DNA of 64,000 bases from Salinarchaeum sp. Harcht-Bsk1 (GCF_000403645.1 NC_021313.1:2375014-2439013), one strand, 5' to 3'; shown: positions 4,264 through 44,746, counted from the first letter of the stretch. The notes: a model not told the origin generated them from the letters alone. Program-made: numbers and translations.

Positions 4264-4935
4264 ATGTCATCGGGCGTCACGACCGTTGCTCGCGACTCGC
4301 TTCGTCGGTCCGCCGCGGCCGGCGGGTATCTGCATCGGGTTCGAACGGAGGCGGACCTGCTGGAGCGGCTCTTGCTCGTCGGCGGGTTCGCGGCGCTGAC
4401 GGGGCTCGCCGCACAGGTCCGGATCCCGCTCTGGTTCACCCCGGTACCGATCACGCTCCAGACGTTCGCCTTCCTGCTCGCCGGGCTGGTGCTCGGTGCC
4501 CGTTTCGGCGGCCTCAGCCAGGGGCTCTACGTCGGCGCGGGCGTCGCCGGCGTTCCCTGGTTCCAGGCGATGGGCGCGGGAGTCGGCCACCTCGCTGGAC
4601 CGACCGGTGGCTACCTCGTCGGAATGTTCTGCTCGACGCTGCTCGTCGGCTACGTCGTCGATCGGTATCCGGTGCGGGAGCACCTCTCGGCGCTGATCGG
4701 TCTCCTCGCCGTCGCGAACGCCCTCGTGTACGTCGTCGGGCTTCCCTGGCTGTTCGCGTGGTCGAACCTCGTCACCGGTGGCGACGTCGGGCTCTGGGAG
4801 CTGCTCGTCATCGGGCTGTTCCCGTTCGTCGCTGGCGACGTGGTCAAGCTACTCGGTGCCGTCGCCGTCGGTCGGCTGCTCGCGCCGCCGGCTTCGCGGT
4901 ACGACGACGCCGGCGAGCCGATCGCCGCCGACTGA
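4264..4935 (+). CDS. bioY: BioY biotin transporter, substrate-binding S component
   Basis: BioY is the membrane S component of an ECF-type biotin importer. The protein has 223 residues from the ATG at 4264, chosen over an upstream GTG/TTG that lacks a signal. It has about six hydrophobic segments. Family features include IPLWFTPVPITLQTFAF near the first membrane segment, GARFGGLSQGLYVGAG, and GPTGGYLVG in the middle. No bioM or bioN (ATPase, T component) gene lies nearby, so it would use distant ECF partners or act alone. Its place between dnaK and dnaJ is unexpected and may be chance. Confidence 0.9.
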   Translation: MSSGVTTVARDSLRRSAAAGGYLHRVRTEADLLERLLLVGGFAALTGLAAQVRIPLWFTPVPITLQTFAFLLAGLVLGARFGGLSQGLYVGAGVAGVPWFQAMGAGVGHLAGPTGGYLVGMFCSTLLVGYVVDRYPVREHLSALIGLLAVANALVYVVGLPWLFAWSNLVTGGDVGLWELLVIGLFPFVAGDVVKLLGAVAVGRLLAPPASRYDDAGEPIAAD

Positions 4936-5047
4936 ACGCTGGCGTCCGGACGAGTTCTCGGCCCTGGACGCGACGATAACCTCGCCGGTTCCGACGAGTC
5001 GATGCCGGTCTTTTCAAGTAGCTCAACGGATTATCCAACGATAACTG

Positions 5048-6238
5048 ATGAGCGAGGACTTCTACGATATTCTGGGGGTTTCACGCGATGCGGACGAGGA
5101 CGAGATCCAGCAGGCCTACCGGAAGAAGGCCGCGGAGTACCACCCCGACGTCTCCGACGACCCCGACGCCGAGGAGAAGTTCAAGCAGGCCAAGAAGGCC
5201 AAGGAGGTCCTCACCGACGAGGAGAAGCGCCAGGCCTACGACCAGCTCGGCCACGAGCGCTTCGAGGAGGCCGAGAAGCGCGGCGGCTTCGACCAGGGCC
5301 CTGGCGGCATGGGCGGCCAGGGTCCTTTCGGTGGGATGGGCGGCCAGGGGCCCTTCGGCGGTGGCGCTGGCGGCGGCCAGGGCTTCGGCAGCGTCGAGGA
5401 CATCTTCGAGCAGTTCTTCGGCGGCGCGGGCGGTGGCCGCGGTGGTGGCAGCCGACGCCGGCAGGGGTCGGACCTCCGGACCAGTCTCGAGATCGACCTG
5501 GAGGAGGCCTACCACGGCGTCGAGAAACAGATGACCGTCGAGCGACCGACGGAGTGCGACGAGTGTGGCGGCGAGGGCCACCCGGCGGACGCCGAGGCCC
5601 GGACCTGCCCCGAGTGTGACGGCCGCGGGCAGGTTCGCCAGGTCCAGCAGACGCCCTTCGGCCGCGTCCAGCAGACCGGGACCTGTCAGCGCTGTGCAGG
5701 CGACGGCGAGATCTACGACGAGACCTGTAGCGAGTGCCGTGGCGAGGGGATCGTTCGCGAGGAGACGACGCTCTCCGTCGAGATCCCCGCCGGCATCCAA
5801 GACGGCCAGACCCTCCGGATGGAGCGGGAGGGCGCTCCCAGCCCGACGCAGGGCCCCAACGGCGACCTCCTCATCGACGTCACGATCGCGGACCACCCCG
5901 AGTTCGAACGCGAGGGCGACGACCTCCACTACCACAAGGGGCTGTCATTCCCCCAGGTCGTCTTCGGCGACACCGTCACCATCCCGACGATCGACGGCGA
6001 GGTCGAACTGGAGATCCCAGCCGGTACCCAGAGCGGCGAGGAGTTCCGCCTCGCCGGCGAGGGGATGCCCCGACTCCGTCGCCGCGGCGAGGGCGACCTC
6101 TACGTCACCGCACAGGTCGTCACCCCCGAGTCGCTGACGGAGGAACAGCAAGAAGCGCTGGAGGCCTTCGCCGAGGCCGGCGGTGAGGAGATCGAAGTGG
6201 ATCAGAGCTTCCTGCAGAAGATCAAGTCTTCCTTTTAA
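5048..6238 (+). CDS. dnaJ: DnaJ (Hsp40) co-chaperone
   Basis: DnaJ delivers unfolded proteins to DnaK and stimulates its ATPase. The protein has 396 residues. The J domain is at residues 1-70 with the HPD motif at 32-34. A Gly/Phe-rich segment follows (about 75-140). The zinc-finger domain has four CxxCxGxG-type repeats (CDECGGEG, CPECDGRG, CQRCAGDG, CSECRGEG). The C-terminal substrate-binding domains complete the type I architecture. The gene is preceded by an AT-rich stretch (TTTTCAAG, TTATCC) and followed directly by the hairpin nest at 6245-6385. Confidence 0.98.
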   Translation: MSEDFYDILGVSRDADEDEIQQAYRKKAAEYHPDVSDDPDAEEKFKQAKKAKEVLTDEEKRQAYDQLGHERFEEAEKRGGFDQGPGGMGGQGPFGGMGGQGPFGGGAGGGQGFGSVEDIFEQFFGGAGGGRGGGSRRRQGSDLRTSLEIDLEEAYHGVEKQMTVERPTECDECGGEGHPADAEARTCPECDGRGQVRQVQQTPFGRVQQTGTCQRCAGDGEIYDETCSECRGEGIVREETTLSVEIPAGIQDGQTLRMEREGAPSPTQGPNGDLLIDVTIADHPEFEREGDDLHYHKGLSFPQVVFGDTVTIPTIDGEVELEIPAGTQSGEEFRLAGEGMPRLRRRGEGDLYVTAQVVTPESLTEEQQEALEAFAEAGGEEIEVDQSFLQKIKSSF

Positions 6239-6246
6239 CCCACCTT

Positions 6247-6306
6247 TTTTTTGGAGGAGGGTTTCCTCGCTCGCTTCGCTCGCTACGGGAACCCTCCTCC
6301 AAAAAA
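6247..6306. terminator. Large symmetric stem-loop between convergent dnaJ and the FAU-1 gene
   Basis: A 17-bp perfect inverted repeat (left arm 6247-6263, right arm 6290-6306) has a run of T at one outer end and A at the other, so it would form a GC-rich stem followed by U on either strand. This layout suits a bidirectional terminator for the two convergent genes. The loop carries CGCTCGCTTCGCTCGC (6268-6283), which recurs at 6365-6380. Confidence 0.6.
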
Positions 6307-6322
6307 TCTGGACCAAAAAACC

Positions 6323-6355
6323 CTGACAGCTCGGGGCTTCGCCCCTCGCTGTCAG
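6323..6355. repeat. Second stem-loop in the dnaJ/FAU-1 intergenic region
   Basis: Arms CTGACAGC (6323-6330) and GCTGTCAG (6348-6355) enclose an inner stem GGGGC/GCCCC with a TTC loop. It is followed at 6361-6384 by a second copy of the mirror-symmetric CGCTCGCTTCGCTCGC motif. Together with the preceding hairpin this forms a compact extragenic palindromic cluster. Confidence 0.6.
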
Positions 6356-6433
6356 CGAACCGCTCGCTCGCTTCGCTCGCTCGCGGACGCTGGCACCATC
6401 CTGGCAGAACATTCTTCGAGGTCGCAAGAATCG

Positions 6434-7873
6434 CTAGTCTGAGAGCGCCTGCTGCGCCCGTTCGGCGACGTTCCTGGCTCGCTCCGCGAGATCCTCGCTC
6501 ACGTGCCCCTCCTCGACGGCCTCGGCGAGTTCGTCATCGTCGACGACCCGAACCTCGCCCGCTGGCGGATTCACCACGTCCACGTGGAGGTCGACGTAGG
6601 TCGCGGCGTCGGGGAACAGCTCCACCGGCGTGCAGACGTTGACGTAGGTGCCCTTCCGCTCGCCGTCGGCGCCGCGATAGATCGTTGGGTACCACCAGCG
6701 ACCCTCTTTGAGCTTCGTGATCGCGACGTCGCCGGGTTCCCGCTCCGTCCCGAGGGCGTCGTACTCGCCCGAACTCGAAATCTCGCGCCGGACCGTGACC
6801 GCGCCGTCGGGATCGTACTCGGTGACGTCGCCGGTCCCGAGGACCAGGCGGCGACCGTCGGGCTTGCCGTGGTGGATCGCGAGGTCGTCGCCGTCGGTCG
6901 GCCCGAACTGGCGGGCGATCGCGTCGAAGGGGAGTTCGTCGGCGTCGACCCCGTCGGTGTGCTCGTCGACGAGCGACTCCGCGAGGTCGACGCCGGCGCT
7001 CGCGGAGCCGTCGGCAGCCTTGATCCGGTGGTGTCCAGGGATCGTCGTTTCGACCGTCCGCCGATGCGCGTCGAGGGCGAGCCGACTCTCGCGGCCGAAC
7101 CAGCACCACGTGGTGGCCGACGGCGTCGCGATCGGCCGCGGCGCTGCCGCTTCGGGGTCCGGAGCGTCGGCGAGGGCGTCCTCGATCGTTTCGGCGCGTT
7201 CGATGACCGCTTCGAGTGCGTCGCCGCGTTCGTCCAGCCCGGCGTCGGCGGCTGCCCGTCGCCAGCGCAGTCCCCATCCCTCCGGAACGGCGACGTCGAG
7301 TAGCTCGGTCGTCCGAGCAAGTGCCGTCGCGTCGGCGTCTGGAGCGTTCGCTCGGACGCCGTCCTCGCCGCGTACCAGTCGCAGGAGGCCACCGGGATCC
7401 TCGACGCGGACGTCGGAATCGAGGCGAGCGTCGTAGTCGCTCCAGGGCGGGGTCGGGTCGCGGACCTGGACGCGGAGCCGATCGCCGGTCTCGACGTAGC
7501 CGTCGGCGTCGTCGAAGGGAAGGTAACCCGTCGCGCCGCCCGGGAGGTCGAGCACGGCGCCGCCACCACGGGTGCCACTGACGACGGCGTTGCTGACGCT
7601 GCCCGTGGGCGCTGGATCGGGCCAGGTGAGCGTGTCGACCTCGACCTCGGCGAGCGTCCCCCCGAGTTCCGCGACGGCCGCTGGATCGCCGCTGATCTCG
7701 ATCCCCTGGCGATCAGTCGTCGTGTCGATCGTCGCGCTGGGCGGCCTCGTCCCGAAATTGGCGTCGAACCGCCGATCGATCGGATCGGAGGCGTGAACCA
7801 CTTCGAAGCCGGCGTCGAGCAGTCGCCGCGTGAGGGCGGTCGCGTAGATGCCGCGAATCCGGACGGCGCTCAT
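6434..7873 (-). CDS. Probable ribonuclease / RNA-binding protein FAU-1 (DUF402)
   Basis: The protein has 479 residues and matches the overall layout of the archaeal FAU-1 family: an N-terminal region, an S1-like beta-barrel (about residues 75-150, with GAVLDLPGGATGYLP and GDRLRVQV), a middle helical region, and a C-terminal DUF402 domain (about 300-450, with YVNVCTPVELFP and YVDLHVDVV). The family is related to RNase E/G-type RNA-binding proteins and binds AU-rich RNA; a role in 5S rRNA processing has been proposed. The C-terminal helix (residues 440-479) resembles the extension of related proteins. It converges with dnaJ and lies just downstream of the gene at 7920-8297. Confidence 0.85.
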   Translation of the reverse strand: MSAVRIRGIYATALTRRLLDAGFEVVHASDPIDRRFDANFGTRPPSATIDTTTDRQGIEISGDPAAVAELGGTLAEVEVDTLTWPDPAPTGSVSNAVVSGTRGGGAVLDLPGGATGYLPFDDADGYVETGDRLRVQVRDPTPPWSDYDARLDSDVRVEDPGGLLRLVRGEDGVRANAPDADATALARTTELLDVAVPEGWGLRWRRAAADAGLDERGDALEAVIERAETIEDALADAPDPEAAAPRPIATPSATTWCWFGRESRLALDAHRRTVETTIPGHHRIKAADGSASAGVDLAESLVDEHTDGVDADELPFDAIARQFGPTDGDDLAIHHGKPDGRRLVLGTGDVTEYDPDGAVTVRREISSSGEYDALGTEREPGDVAITKLKEGRWWYPTIYRGADGERKGTYVNVCTPVELFPDAATYVDLHVDVVNPPAGEVRVVDDDELAEAVEEGHVSEDLAERARNVAERAQQALSD

Positions 7874-32126: not shown

Positions 32127-32321
32127 TTACAGCCGGGTGACGTTGGTCGCGCGGGGGCCCTTGGGGGCCTGTTCGATTTCGAATTCGATCTCCTGGCCTT
32201 CCTCGAGGTCGGGGCCGCCAACGTCCTCCATGTGGAAGAAAACGTCCTCGTCCGCGTCCTCTGTTTCGATGAAGCCGTAACCGCCAGTGTCGTTGAAGAA
32301 GTCAACCGTACCGGATGCCAT
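32127..32321 (-). CDS. cspA: Cold shock domain protein
   Basis: This 64-residue protein is a single five-stranded cold shock domain that binds single-stranded RNA/DNA. RNP1 (GGYGFIE) and RNP2 (DVFFHM) are intact. The C-terminus has GPRATNV, as in other members. I start it at ATG 32321 (MASGTVDFF), not the GTG upstream, because the TATA-like CCTTATCC (about 32350) fits that start. Probably an RNA chaperone. Confidence 0.95.
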   Translation of the reverse strand: MASGTVDFFNDTGGYGFIETEDADEDVFFHMEDVGGPDLEEGQEIEFEIEQAPKGPRATNVTRL

Positions 32322-39774: not shown

Positions 39775-40701
39775 TCAGGCCGAGACGTCCATCCGCTGGA
39801 AGCGGTAGGTCGCGTACGCAAGCAGTCCCACGGAGATGAGGACGATCGCCAGGAGCGAAACCACGGGCTCGACGTGGCCGGCGAGGTCGAGCGACTCGGG
39901 AAGATTCTCGGGCTCGGCCTCGGCCTGCTTCGCGTCGTAGACGCCGGTGAACGTCGTGATGAACGCCTGGGTCTCGGCGTCGAACCCGCCGTTGACCGTC
40001 TCGATCAGCACGACGAAGGCGTTGCCGAAGTGGTAGTTGACGTCCAGCAGGTAGAGGTAGTAGTCCTCGTATGTGGCGCCCGCGAGGGCCCTGACCGGGA
40101 AGAACGCGAAGTACAGGGCCGGGACGACTAGCGACCCCAGCCCGGTCTGCAGGCGGTTGCCGGTCCGGACGGCCAGCGTCAGCCCAAGCGCCGCGACGAA
40201 CACAGCGATCAGGAGGACGAACGCGAGCAATCCAGGGAGCGCACCGAAGAGTCCCTCCTCGAGCGCCGCGGCGCTAGTACCCGAGAACTCGAAGATGGCG
40301 AGGCCGGTGAGCAACAGGCTCGCGATCCCGACGAACAGGACGAACCCCACGATCGCTCCGAACGTGCCAAGCAGGACCTCCCAGCGCCGAACGGGCTTGC
40401 TCAGGAGGATCTGTAGCGTCCCCTGCTCGGCCTCCTTGGCGAGCGAGGTCGCACTCGCGATCGCCCCGAGGAGCATCAGCGGGATCGATCCAGCCCAGAG
40501 CACCGAGATACCGAGGAACGTCCGGTAGAACTCCGCCTCCTGCTGGGCGAGCGGGGCGCTCGCGACGTTCTCCAGGTCGTTGCTCGCGAAACCGATCGCG
40601 AGGAAGAAGAGGACGCCGCCGAAGACGAGGAAGTATCCGAGGAGGACGAGCGGCCTCGCGAGGTCCGCGACTGTCTTCCGGAGGATCAGGTGGAACCGCA
40701 C
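39775..40701 (-). CDS. ABC-2 type permease (NosY-like)
   Basis: The 308-residue protein starts at GTG 40701, 2 bp after the ATPase stop. It has about six membrane helices with a large extracytoplasmic loop (residues about 30-70 and 195-270). Family signs are the cytoplasmic EAEQGTLQILLSKPVRRWEVLLG and the final helix LAIVLISVGLLAYATYRF. This resembles NosY of the copper-site maturation transporter and other ABC-2 exporters. It is the third gene of the operon with the protease and ATPase. Confidence 0.88.
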   Translation of the reverse strand: MRFHLILRKTVADLARPLVLLGYFLVFGGVLFFLAIGFASNDLENVASAPLAQQEAEFYRTFLGISVLWAGSIPLMLLGAIASATSLAKEAEQGTLQILLSKPVRRWEVLLGTFGAIVGFVLFVGIASLLLTGLAIFEFSGTSAAALEEGLFGALPGLLAFVLLIAVFVAALGLTLAVRTGNRLQTGLGSLVVPALYFAFFPVRALAGATYEDYYLYLLDVNYHFGNAFVVLIETVNGGFDAETQAFITTFTGVYDAKQAEAEPENLPESLDLAGHVEPVVSLLAIVLISVGLLAYATYRFQRMDVSA

Positions 40702-40703
40702 GC

Positions 40704-41825
40704 TCAGTCACCTCCCTCTCGTCCTGGGTCGTCGGACGCCGGTGCCGCCTCCGGAGCGTCGGCACCGCCCTCGGCAGCAGTACGGGTAGCCTCTCCGGTG
40801 ACGCCGCCCGCGGCGGTCCCGTTCTGGGTCTCTTCGATGAGGTGGAGGACGGCCTCCTCGAGCCCGTCCTCCCGTTCCATCGACCTGAGTCCCAGTTCCG
40901 CGTCCCCGATCATCCCCTGGAGCTCGATCGTGAAGTCCTCCGGCTCCGCGGGAACGGCCGCCACACGCCCGCCGTCGCGTCGTTCTACTCGTTCGACGGT
41001 CGGATGGTCGGCGAGCAACGTCGCGAGCCGGTCGTTGTCCGTCGTGTCGACGACGTACGTTTCGGTGCTGACGGCCGACCGGATCGCCTCCAGCGGTCCG
41101 GAGCGGGCGACCTGGCCCTCGGCGAGGATCGTCACGGTGTCGACGAATCGCTCGAGCTCGGCGAGGACGTGGCTGCTGACGAAGACCGTCATCCCCTCCT
41201 CGGTGAGGTCCTGCAGCGAGTCGATGATCGACGCCCGCCCCTCCGGATCCAGCGTCGCGGTCGGCTCGTCGAGGATCAGCAGCTCCGGGTCGTGGATCAT
41301 CGCCTGGGCGAGCCCCAGCTTCCGCGCCATGCCGCCGCTGTACCCGCCGATGGTCTGGTCGGCGGCGTCCGCGAGGTCGAGCCACTCGAGCAGTTCGTCG
41401 GCACGCTCGCTGGCCTCGTTCCTCCCCATCCCGGCGACGCGACCCATGTAGACCAGGTAATTCCGGCCGGTCATCGACTCGTAGAACGCCGGCTCCTGTG
41501 GGGCGTAGCCGATCTTCGCAGTTGCGGCGTAGGAGCCCGCGGGATCGCCGCCGATGCGCACCTCGCCCGCCGTCGGCGAGACGAGTCCGGTCAGCATCTG
41601 CATCGTCGTGGACTTGCCCGCGCCGTTGGGCCCGACAAACCCGTGGATGCTACCTCGCTCGACGGTAATATCGACGCCGTCGACGGCGGTCAGGTCGCCG
41701 TATCGCTTCGTCAGGTTCCGCGCCTGGATCATCGGCGTCTCGGCAGGTGTTGCGGTCGAGTCTGCGTCCGTCGTCGCCTCCGCGGTCTCGATGCCTGTGG
41801 TGTCCTTTTCTTGCACGGTGGTCAC
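40704..41825 (-). CDS. ABC transporter ATPase (NosF-like)
   Basis: The 373-residue protein starts at GTG 41825, overlapping the protease stop by 4 nt (GTGA). Walker A is GFVGPNGAGKSTTM, the Q loop is YAPQEPAF, the signature is GYSGGMARKLGLAQ, Walker B is LLILDEPTATLDPEG and the H loop is SSHVLAELE. The C-terminal ~110 residues are a regulatory domain followed by a Gly/Ala/Glu-rich tail. It should pair with the permease at 39775-40701. Direction is export, or force generation on an extracytoplasmic protein. Confidence 0.9.
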   Translation of the reverse strand: MTTVQEKDTTGIETAEATTDADSTATPAETPMIQARNLTKRYGDLTAVDGVDITVERGSIHGFVGPNGAGKSTTMQMLTGLVSPTAGEVRIGGDPAGSYAATAKIGYAPQEPAFYESMTGRNYLVYMGRVAGMGRNEASERADELLEWLDLADAADQTIGGYSGGMARKLGLAQAMIHDPELLILDEPTATLDPEGRASIIDSLQDLTEEGMTVFVSSHVLAELERFVDTVTILAEGQVARSGPLEAIRSAVSTETYVVDTTDNDRLATLLADHPTVERVERRDGGRVAAVPAEPEDFTIELQGMIGDAELGLRSMEREDGLEEAVLHLIEETQNGTAAGGVTGEATRTAAEGGADAPEAAPASDDPGREGGD

Positions 41826-44746
41826 CTCGTAATCCGTCGTCTGGCGTACGGGACGAGCAGTGCGACCAGCGAGAGCCCAGTGGCGCCGTAGAGCACGAGG
41901 TGCCACGCCGAGTCCTCCTCGACCGAGCCAGCGCCGTCGAGGCCCACGATCTCCGATTCGACTTCGCGGAACTCGTTGCCAGAGATATCGCCGACAGCTG
42001 CCCCGTCGGTCACTTCGATCCCGATCGCTGCCCCCTCGACGACGTTGTTCCGAATCGGGCCCGGTTCGGCGTCGAGCTGATCCAGTCTCGACTGTGGGGT
42101 CCCGACGCGGATCGCCGTGCCTCCGATTCCGCGGAACCGGTTGTCGGCGACTTCCCTCGCCAGACCGTCGAGCGCGAGCCCCGTCTCGACGTCGTGGACG
42201 TCGTTCCCGCGGACGATCGTGGCTCCTGGGCCGATGATCGAGATGCCGACGGTCTCGCCGGTCACGTCGTTCGCCTCGACGACGGCCGCTGGCGCGACCC
42301 GAACGTCGACGCCGGTGTCCCCGCCACGGACCGTGCCGTTCCGGATCGTCGCCGCCGAAGGCGCGTCCGTCTCGCGATTTTGCGGTTCGGTGCCGATCTG
42401 CACCCCGGCTGACGCGCCCGGTGCATCGATCGTGACGCCGTCTATCTCGACGTCGTTCGCGCCGACGTAGATTCCCGGGCGGTCCGACGCGCCGTCGATC
42501 TCGATCCGGGGCGATGCATCTGTAGCGGCGACCAACGACACTGGCTTGTTCAGTCTCAGGGTGCTCGGGCCGTCACCGCCGGACCCGGAGAACGTCGCGT
42601 CGCCGAGTTCGATCGTCGTGCCCGGCGCGACGAGGTCGACGGGTGCCTGGATCGACGGGACCCGCTCGCCGACGCGGAGGGGATCCGAATGGACCCGTAC
42701 CGTCGGAAGCTCGCCGAACCGGTCCTCCCCGTTCCTCGAAACGGCGAGGTCGGCCGTGACCGAACCGACCCGTGCCCCCTCGGGGACCTCGATCGTGACG
42801 GTGAACTCGGGGGTCCGATCGACTGCGTCGACCTCCACTGGCTCCCCGAACTGGGCCGATTTCCCGTTCACGCGCAGTCCGAGGTCCGCTCGCTGGAGCA
42901 GCCCTTCCGTCGTCACATCGACGGTTGCGAACTCGACGTTCGCGGCGGTGAACGTCGCCGTCGCGGCCCCGCCAGCCTCGATCCGGTCCGGCGGCGCCTC
43001 GGTCAGTCCCACCGCTGGCCCGTCGGCGGGGGTGGGCGTGAACTCGACCTCGTTGGTCGACGCCGGGTCGAGCATCGTGGCGTCGACCTCGTACCCGATG
43101 GCGCCCGCACCGATCGGCTGCTCACCGGCAGGCAGGGTTAGCTCGAAGCGCCCCTCGGCGTCGGTCCTCGTCCGCCGCCCGACCTCGGCGCCGACCAGTG
43201 CGCCGGGCATCGGCGACCCGTCGGGTCGATAGACGGTGCCGGTGATCGTGTGGCCGGCGACGAGCTCCGTCGCGGCGAACAGCGCGCTGGCGACGCCGGC
43301 TCCGTAGCGGTCGTCCTCGCCCGGATCCACGGCGAAGGGATCGTCCCGGTCCGGGTGCACCGCCGCGTCGACGAGGGCTCGCTCCAGGTCCTCGACGCCA
43401 ACGCCGTCGGCGTCGGCCGCTCTGGCGGCCGAAAGCGCCAGCGCTGCTGCGCCGGCGACCTGGGGTGCTGCGGCGCTCGCCCCGCCCGCCCCTGAGTAGC
43501 TCCCTCCGGGCTCAGCGCTCGGGACCTCGACCCCCGCGGCGGTGACGTCGGGGACGGTGTACTCGTCTGGCCAGCCGTCCGGGGCTGCTCCGCCCCAGTA
43601 TCGGTCGGTCAGGATCCGCTCGCCGCCCGAGAAGTCGGTGACGGTCCCGTCCCGATCGACCGCGCCGACGCCGACGACGGTGGGCATGTTTCCGGGGCTG
43701 GCGCTGGTGTAGTGACCGGCGTTCCCGACTGCCCCGACGACGAGCACGCCACTTGCCCTGGCGTTCTCGAGGGGCTCGACCAGCTGTGCGGGGTACGACA
43801 GCGGACCGAGGCTCATCGAGACCACGTCGACGCCCTGCTCGATGGCCCACTCCAGCCCCGCGACGATCGGTGCGAAGGCCAGCCCGTCCTCGCCAACCAC
43901 CTTCGCGTGGTAGAGTGCGGCCGCTGGTGCGACGCCGTACTGAACGCCGTCGTCCGTCGTATCCCCTACCACGAGCCCACTGGTTCCGGTCCCGTGCCCG
44001 TTCGGATCGTAGGGATCACTCTCCACGCGCTCCCCGCCGTCGTCGAACTCCATCCAGCCGCCGCGATCGAGTGCAGACTGGATCCCCTCGTGGCCCTCCG
44101 GATCGACGCCGGAATCGAGCACTGCGACGTCGACGCCCTCGCCGCGGGCACCGTAGAAGTCCCAGACCGTTGGGGCGTGTATCTGCTCGAGGCCGTAGGA
44201 GGGCCCTGCGCCGTCGCCCTGCTGGCCGATCCGCGCACTGCCGGCGGTCGTCGCGCTCTTCGCTCTCCCGGTCCTGCGGCGGGCGCCGTCAGTTCGGTCC
44301 TTGGCCCGAGGCAGGTCGCTGCCGACGGCCGAATCTCGATCAATCGCGCCCTCAGTCATCGACGTCGCGTCGTTTGGACGAATCTCGCTGACGGCGTCGA
44401 CTGCTGCGATCGCTTCGAGCGTGACGACGCCGGGATCGACCCGCGCGAGGACTGCGTCTGCGAGCCAGAACTCGCGGCGTATCTCGATTCCTGCCGTGGT
44501 CGCGGCGAACCGACGGAAGTTGTCGTGGGACGCGCCGGCATGCTGTTTGAGTCGCGATACTGCGTTCTCCTCGATCGACCGTGGGTCGTCGATGCCCTCG
44601 AAGCGCACGACGACGTCGAGGGGCTCGTCGGCAGCGGCGGCTCGGTGCCACTCGGCGTCCAGACGCCCCGCAACCGTAGCGAGTCCTCCGCCGCCGACTG
44701 CCCCGAGAAACGCGCGTCGACCGGTCGACGGGACGGAATCCGGCAT
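41822..44746 (-). CDS. Subtilisin-like (S8) secreted protease fused to a parallel beta-helix region
   Basis: The protein has 974 residues from ATG 44746. A Tat-like signal (STGRRAFLGAVGG) leads it. An inhibitor-like prodomain (about 35-130) precedes the S8 domain with Asp211 (VAVLDSG), His251 (NGHGTGTSG), Asn342 (GAVGNAG) and Ser424 (GGASAAAPQVAG). The usual motif GTSMAAPH is altered (M to A, H to Q), but the Ser is kept. A carboxypeptidase-regulatory-like domain (about 515-560) and a beta-sandwich follow. Residues about 730-930 contain NosD-like right-handed beta-helix turns (VEANDVTGETVGISI, IVRGNDVHDVETGLAL). A C-terminal membrane helix anchors it. Confidence 0.9.
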   Translation of the reverse strand: MPDSVPSTGRRAFLGAVGGGGLATVAGRLDAEWHRAAAADEPLDVVVRFEGIDDPRSIEENAVSRLKQHAGASHDNFRRFAATTAGIEIRREFWLADAVLARVDPGVVTLEAIAAVDAVSEIRPNDATSMTEGAIDRDSAVGSDLPRAKDRTDGARRRTGRAKSATTAGSARIGQQGDGAGPSYGLEQIHAPTVWDFYGARGEGVDVAVLDSGVDPEGHEGIQSALDRGGWMEFDDGGERVESDPYDPNGHGTGTSGLVVGDTTDDGVQYGVAPAAALYHAKVVGEDGLAFAPIVAGLEWAIEQGVDVVSMSLGPLSYPAQLVEPLENARASGVLVVGAVGNAGHYTSASPGNMPTVVGVGAVDRDGTVTDFSGGERILTDRYWGGAAPDGWPDEYTVPDVTAAGVEVPSAEPGGSYSGAGGASAAAPQVAGAAALALSAARAADADGVGVEDLERALVDAAVHPDRDDPFAVDPGEDDRYGAGVASALFAATELVAGHTITGTVYRPDGSPMPGALVGAEVGRRTRTDAEGRFELTLPAGEQPIGAGAIGYEVDATMLDPASTNEVEFTPTPADGPAVGLTEAPPDRIEAGGAATATFTAANVEFATVDVTTEGLLQRADLGLRVNGKSAQFGEPVEVDAVDRTPEFTVTIEVPEGARVGSVTADLAVSRNGEDRFGELPTVRVHSDPLRVGERVPSIQAPVDLVAPGTTIELGDATFSGSGGDGPSTLRLNKPVSLVAATDASPRIEIDGASDRPGIYVGANDVEIDGVTIDAPGASAGVQIGTEPQNRETDAPSAATIRNGTVRGGDTGVDVRVAPAAVVEANDVTGETVGISIIGPGATIVRGNDVHDVETGLALDGLAREVADNRFRGIGGTAIRVGTPQSRLDQLDAEPGPIRNNVVEGAAIGIEVTDGAAVGDISGNEFREVESEIVGLDGAGSVEEDSAWHLVLYGATGLSLVALLVPYARRRITR

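Follow-up and report, generated by a model that had tools for sequence, protein, structure and literature searches.

A 64,000-nucleotide stretch of the Salinarchaeum sp. Harcht-Bsk1 genome (NC_021313.1:2375014-2439013, hereafter the window) contains, at 39775-44746, three tightly coupled minus-strand genes encoding a subtilase/beta-helix protein exported by the twin-arginine translocation (Tat) pathway, an ATP-binding cassette (ABC) ATPase and an ABC-2 permease. Comparison with other archaeal loci revealed that the constant partner of the ABC pair is a tail-anchored ectodomain protein and not the protease. Because the outer part of this protein is replaced by other folds in relatives, the protease is an optional attachment. 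The interpretation that we favour, with moderate confidence, is that an archaeal NosFY-like engine drives an exchangeable tail-anchored ectodomain, which in the window would be an ATP-controlled surface protease. The combination of a conserved engine and anchor with exchangeable ectodomains is a more interesting finding than the protease itself.

The coordinates and coupling of the three genes are those described in the original prediction, which had been made from the DNA sequence of the window. The TGA stop of gene 1 (41824-41822) overlaps the GTG start of the ATPase gene (41825-41823), and the permease gene starts 2 bp after the ATPase stop codon:

41822-44746, minus strand: gene 1, 974-amino-acid Tat-exported subtilase/CarboxypepD_reg/sandwich/beta-helix ectodomain protein with C-terminal membrane anchor (sequence, Pfam, AlphaFold).
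40704-41825, minus strand: gene 2, ABC ATPase, 4-bp overlap with gene 1 (GTGA), alternative start Met32 (41732).
39775-40701, minus strand: gene 3, ABC-2 permease with predicted NosY fold, 2 bp after gene 2 (Pfam and AlphaFold).

A search with the permease in 392 genomes of the window's order (E below 1e-50) found it in 11, the window's genome included, scattered over several families; it was absent from the other two genomes of the window's family (three genomes in all). When genomes chosen by name were scanned, further matches came from Salinibaculum litoreum and Halobellus clavatus, from one metagenome-assembled genome (MAG) each of Hadesarchaea and Aenigmatarchaeota, and from several Lokiarchaeal MAGs. 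In the phylum of one of the Lokiarchaeal MAGs permease matches were obtained in 13 of 119 genomes drawn, and the Hadesarchaeal group had one family member in 28 genomes. A phylum draw of 393 genomes yielded no family member besides the window and one haloarchaeon that the other searches had already found. The readable loci span four archaeal groups: haloarchaea, where the distribution is patchy, Hadesarchaea, Aenigmatarchaeota and Lokiarchaeota. At all 17 of them the conserved ABC pair directly follows a gene whose product is large, exported and equipped with a membrane helix at its C-terminus. The gap between the ectodomain gene and the ATPase gene ranges from -8 to +20 bp, and that between the ATPase and permease genes from -4 to +6 bp. 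The recurrence of the operon in three groups besides the haloarchaea points to a module of long standing in archaea, one without described function in the literature searched. No description of this ABC-ectodomain family was found in the openly accessible literature searched, and a machine composed of a conserved ABC pair and a large membrane-tethered surface protein is apparently undescribed so far.

An 18th locus (G175) is damaged, with the ATPase in two frames, and was left out of the 17 gaps and of the ATPase tree. Broken or partial operons in MAG QS_6_64_34 (L037/L049) and Halapricum hydrolyticum (L038/L051) were also excluded from the count. Both are remnants (L049:5763-6698 in QS_6_64_34 and L051:6455-8100 in H. 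hydrolyticum), in which the permease is largely kept, the ATPase is missing or partial and the ectodomain is gone. Further Asgard loci of the near subfamily keep a large C-anchored gene upstream of the ABC pair. Among the distant Asgard members (E about 1e-35 to 1e-38), L170 and L175 have no such upstream gene, and L174 and L177 are truncated by the contig end.

Ectodomain types were assigned by Pfam and NCBIfam. The combination of S8 protease, CarboxypepD_reg and beta-helix occurs in five loci (the window, G010, G136, a Halorubrum MAG and H. clavatus). The ABC pair is most often coupled to PQQ/FG-GAP propellers in which no enzyme domain is known (G053, Halorussus halobius, G108, Salinibaculum, Hadesarchaea and Aenigmatarchaeota), with weaker propeller signals in Lokiarchaea. 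Two Natrarchaeobius chitinivorans loci have a beta-helix alone, and G175 has an SBBP-type propeller. The original prediction had made its link between protease and transporter depend on regular co-occurrence of their genes and on a beta-helix in the C-terminal region. The second feature is present, as the region does model as a beta-helix; the first is not, as the subtilase was found in 5 of the 17 readable loci and the ABC pair is mostly without it. This rules out the protease as constant partner. In the Lokiarchaeal loci L057, L059, L061 and L062 the gene directly before the ATPase gene encodes an exported C-anchored protein of 1462-1767 amino acids with weak propeller signals. The propeller gene of S. 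litoreum (L042:5066-8060) is interrupted near 5731 by a change of reading frame, either because the sequence has an error there or because the gene is broken; this locus has an intact ATPase and permease.

In a tree built from ATPase and permease the propeller loci branch off at the base and the remaining types are derived; the ectodomain type has changed at least three times, and the tree does not reject that the subtilase type arose only once (p-AU 0.34). The propeller was probably the ancestral ectodomain type. Propeller ectodomains are homologous to one another across phyla (BLAST). Haloarchaeal ectodomains of unlike fold give BLAST alignments that cover little beyond the last 23-34 residues, where identity is about 40-70%: the window protein and its Salinibaculum counterpart share 58% over 33 residues, those of G136 and Natrarchaeobius 70% over 23. 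The anchor, roughly the last 25-33 residues, is thus conserved across the haloarchaeal ectodomain types and is all that they have in common. Two haloarchaeal secreted subtilases, L108 (G303) 4825-7845 and L109 (G223) 5069-7747, resemble the window protein over nearly the full length with the same domain order and about 40% identity (43 and 41%, respectively), but they have no adjoining ABC genes and their C-termini lack the LYAATxL..PYxxRR motif of the ABC-linked anchor. The G223 protein ends in a PGF-CTERM signal (TIGR04126, 27.8 bits, cut-off 24.5), for which Pfam and NCBIfam gave no match in the window protein. Since the ABC-less homologues end differently, this particular anchor accompanies the ABC pair; of the sequence evidence, this association argues most strongly that the anchor may serve as a docking element.

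The ectodomain protein of the window has the following parts:

44627-44746, minus strand: twin-arginine signal region, residues 1-40, RRAFL at residues 10-14 (sequence; RR motif invariant in four subtilase homologues).
44357-44620, minus strand: putative prodomain-like region, residues 43-130 (no Pfam match).
43295-44143, minus strand: Peptidase_S8 domain, residues 202-484 (Pfam).
44114-44116, minus strand: catalytic Asp211 (alignment).
43994-43996, minus strand: catalytic His251 (alignment).
43721-43723, minus strand: oxyanion Asn342, which the homologues of Halobellus, Halorubrum and G136 have lost (alignment).
43475-43477, minus strand: catalytic Ser424, in GASAAAPQ (alignment).
43037-43249, minus strand: CarboxypepD_reg sandwich, residues 500-570 (Pfam).
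42677-43024, minus strand: second, Ig-like sandwich, residues about 575-690 (AlphaFold model; boundaries approximate).
41942-42649, minus strand: right-handed beta-helix, residues about 700-935 (Pfam, AlphaFold, fold search; boundaries approximate).
41825-41914, minus strand: C-terminal anchor module, residues 945-974, DSAWHLVLYGATGLSLVALLVPYARRRITR, common to coupled ectodomains of other folds.

The N-terminus carries the twin-arginine signal GRRAFLGAV, and the prodomain-like region is kept by the coupled homologues as well as by many subtilases of haloarchaea. Peptidase_S8 was matched over its whole profile (8.8e-38, 130.7 bits). The catalytic residues of subtilisin BPN' align with Asp211, His251, Asn342 and Ser424; triad and oxyanion Asn are intact within a complete S8 domain, and the serine motif, GASAAAPQ, departs from GTSMA. 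With triad and Asn kept, proteolysis by the window protein is plausible. Pfam also detected CarboxypepD_reg (6.6e-11) and Beta_helix (3.3e-8). AlphaFold modelling (residues 575-974, three homologues, mean pLDDT 85) predicted an Ig-like sandwich followed by a beta-helix and, at 946-972, a terminal helix, and the hydrophobic C-terminus is followed by arginines. These results agree with the original prediction of a 974-residue protein with an S8 domain, an altered GTSMAAPH-type motif, sandwich domains and a C-terminal membrane anchor. Of its NosD-like beta-helix the modelled fold stands and the NosD likeness goes no further: Foldseek matched the region with beta-helix enzymes (GH87 glucanase, YbhC, chondroitinase B), no NosD chain was among the 50 matches listed, and NosD as such is therefore not borne out. 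The Pfam NosD model scored slightly under its cut-off (22.7 vs 23.6 bits), the NosD model TIGR04247 far under it (33.5 vs 300 bits).

The ATPase matches ABC_tran (2.9e-31) and the permease ABC2_membrane_2 (5.6e-17). Homologous ATPases start with 'MIET..' at the equivalent of Met32; the 31 further residues gained with the GTG start may therefore be absent from the protein. The permease had been called NosY-like, and its AlphaFold model (pLDDT 89.1) bears this out at the level of fold: the ten best PDB matches were all NosY (best E 1.5e-4, TM-score up to 0.69). The family permease profile reached a single PDB sequence, NosY (7o0y_D), and that weakly (E=0.026). In profile comparison with haloarchaeal NosY the aligned parts were the coupling region and transmembrane helices TM3-TM5 only. 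Across the four archaeal groups the best-conserved permease stretches are the cytoplasmic coupling region and then a predicted extracytoplasmic segment:

40018-40077, minus strand: family-specific permease segment, residues 209-228 (YxxYxLYxxDVxYHxGN), between TM5 and TM6.

The window has all marks of the family, namely the order anchored ectodomain gene-ATPase-permease and the DVxYHxGN segment.

There is no ATP outside the cell. The machine that we propose would combine a NosF-like ATPase and a NosY-fold permease with a large ectodomain protein that leaves the cytoplasm by Tat or Sec and stays attached to the membrane through its C-terminal helix. In most haloarchaeal members, to judge from their RR motifs, Tat would export the folded ectodomain and the C-terminal helix would insert in the membrane. 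The helix may dock on the NosY-like permease. Movements of the latter, driven by ATP, would then be transmitted to the ectodomain (mechanotransmission) instead of exporting a solute; alternatively, they could lift a membrane substrate toward the ectodomain. In the window the protease at the cell surface would be gated by the engine or supplied by it with proteins close to the membrane. Tail-anchored Tat substrates are among the proteins described in bacteria (PMC10924467).

A comparable system is YbbAP-TesA, in which a mechanotransmission ABC pair is proposed to present substrate to an extracytoplasmic hydrolase (PMC12646458). YbbAP-TesA differs in being bacterial, with a type VII (MacB-type) permease and a lipid (thio)esterase, whereas the family described here has a NosY-type permease and an exchangeable tail-anchored partner. 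The ABC2_membrane_2 match and the NosY fold rule out membership in the type VII mechanotransmission ABC systems (MacB/FtsX/YbbAP); by analogy, their working principle may apply here although membership fails.

Several observations weigh against the proposed mechanism. Structures were predicted for single chains only, and the contact between anchor and permease is one that we infer; the closest working analogue, YbbAP, is of type VII whereas the permease of the window has the NosY fold. Lokiarchaeal anchors have no BLAST resemblance to the haloarchaeal anchor. At the loci read there is no substrate or conserved neighbour gene pointing to a task. Lastly, three of the five coupled subtilases are without the oxyanion Asn, so proteolysis cannot be the common function of the family, and the activity of the window protease may be weak too. 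A wider proposal, that widespread archaeal NosFY-type motors work interchangeable tail-anchored ectodomains and that a haloarchaeal branch gates a surface subtilase, which would be ATP-controlled outside the cell, is put forward tentatively and as the less probable of the two. If true, a conserved engine with exchangeable outer domains would be a general solution for powering archaeal surface work, and the ectodomain swaps (protease, beta-helix, propellers) would be natural experiments on the parts that couple ATP use to the ectodomain.

A possible but rather unlikely alternative is that the ABC pair exports a lipid, drug or peptide in the way of other ABC-2 transporters, and that the anchored ectodomain is an accessory that captures or, here, proteolytically matures the exported substrate, on the model of the leader proteases beside lantibiotic exporters. 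ABC-2 permeases are mostly exporters. The top NCBIfam match of the ATPase was drrA (227 of 312 bits), lantibiotic ABC ATPases were matched as well, and a protease domain is present. Against export speak the lack of a recognised precursor gene nearby, the propellers or protease-free beta-helix at most loci, and the ranking of the permease folds, in which NosY is nearest and the PmtCD exporter lower down. The resemblance to GldA/GldF and drrA-type modules is that of ABC-2 ATPases and permeases in general; scores are well under the curated cut-offs, and those models describe no such anchored ectodomain.

Somewhat further from what we expect, and unlikely, is an ectodomain that serves as a scaffold for structure or for binding, as in adhesion, sensing or the holding of a substrate, with the subtilase a dispensable or decaying passenger and the ABC pair moving or installing it. 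The interchange of ectodomain folds is consistent with this, as is the fact that the commonest partner is a propeller. Loss of the oxyanion Asn strongly lowers subtilisin activity, and the Halobellus, Halorubrum and G136 subtilases (L031, L032, L046), which are close mutual relatives, keep the triad and have lost this Asn; they may therefore be weak or inactive. The window and G010 proteins, however, keep triad and Asn, with S8 scores of 130.7 and 144.2 bits, respectively.

Maturation of a copper or other metal centre in the manner of NosDFY, with a protease added, appears very unlikely. It shares with the operon the order of genes for ectodomain, ATPase and permease as in NosD-NosF-NosY, the predicted permease fold and, in the window, a beta-helix beside the anchor (NosDFY structures: PDB 7o0y, 7znq, 7qba). 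The family differs by its DVxYHxGN permease segment and by a tail-anchored ectodomain, which is often not a beta-helix, relatives carrying propellers in its place, and which in the window includes a protease domain; NosD controls from nos operons (L138-L140) have hydrophilic C-termini, in contrast to the terminal helix of the window protein. The ATPase had been called NosF-like. It is an ABC_tran ATPase, but in the tree 15 family ATPases form one clade (100/99) outside both groups of NosF controls, which do not themselves form one clade. As had been noted originally, there are no nos or copper genes among the annotated neighbours. Moreover, the host genome already has a separate NosL-NosD-NosF-NosY cluster followed by a DsbA-like gene (G000:C1:756000-773000; L137:5179-10151), whose NosD scores 170.8 of 300 bits with TIGR04247. 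NosZ was not recognised in the 17 kb around this cluster, and a nos_propeller (nosZ) search gave no match in the host genome, nor any in control genomes. The NosD model score, the ATPase tree and the gene context rule out membership in NosDFY: the family resembles NosFY in modelled fold, and probably in working principle, and is not a NosDFY system.

That an unrelated surface protease and ABC pair are adjacent by chance is scarcely credible: full-length subtilase/beta-helix homologues do occur without adjoining ABC genes, but recurrence at 17 of 17 readable loci rules out a chance operon, and the anchor is common to different fold types.

The neighbours of the operon in the window are annotated as a xylose-isomerase-like protein, YlbF, Dph2, RIO kinase, PadR, MgtC/DUF4010 and an aminotransferase. 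Elsewhere in the window, 32127-32321 encodes a 64-amino-acid cold-shock-like protein (MASGTVDFFNDTGGYGFI...), similar copies of which form a tandem pair at L031:2594-2985.

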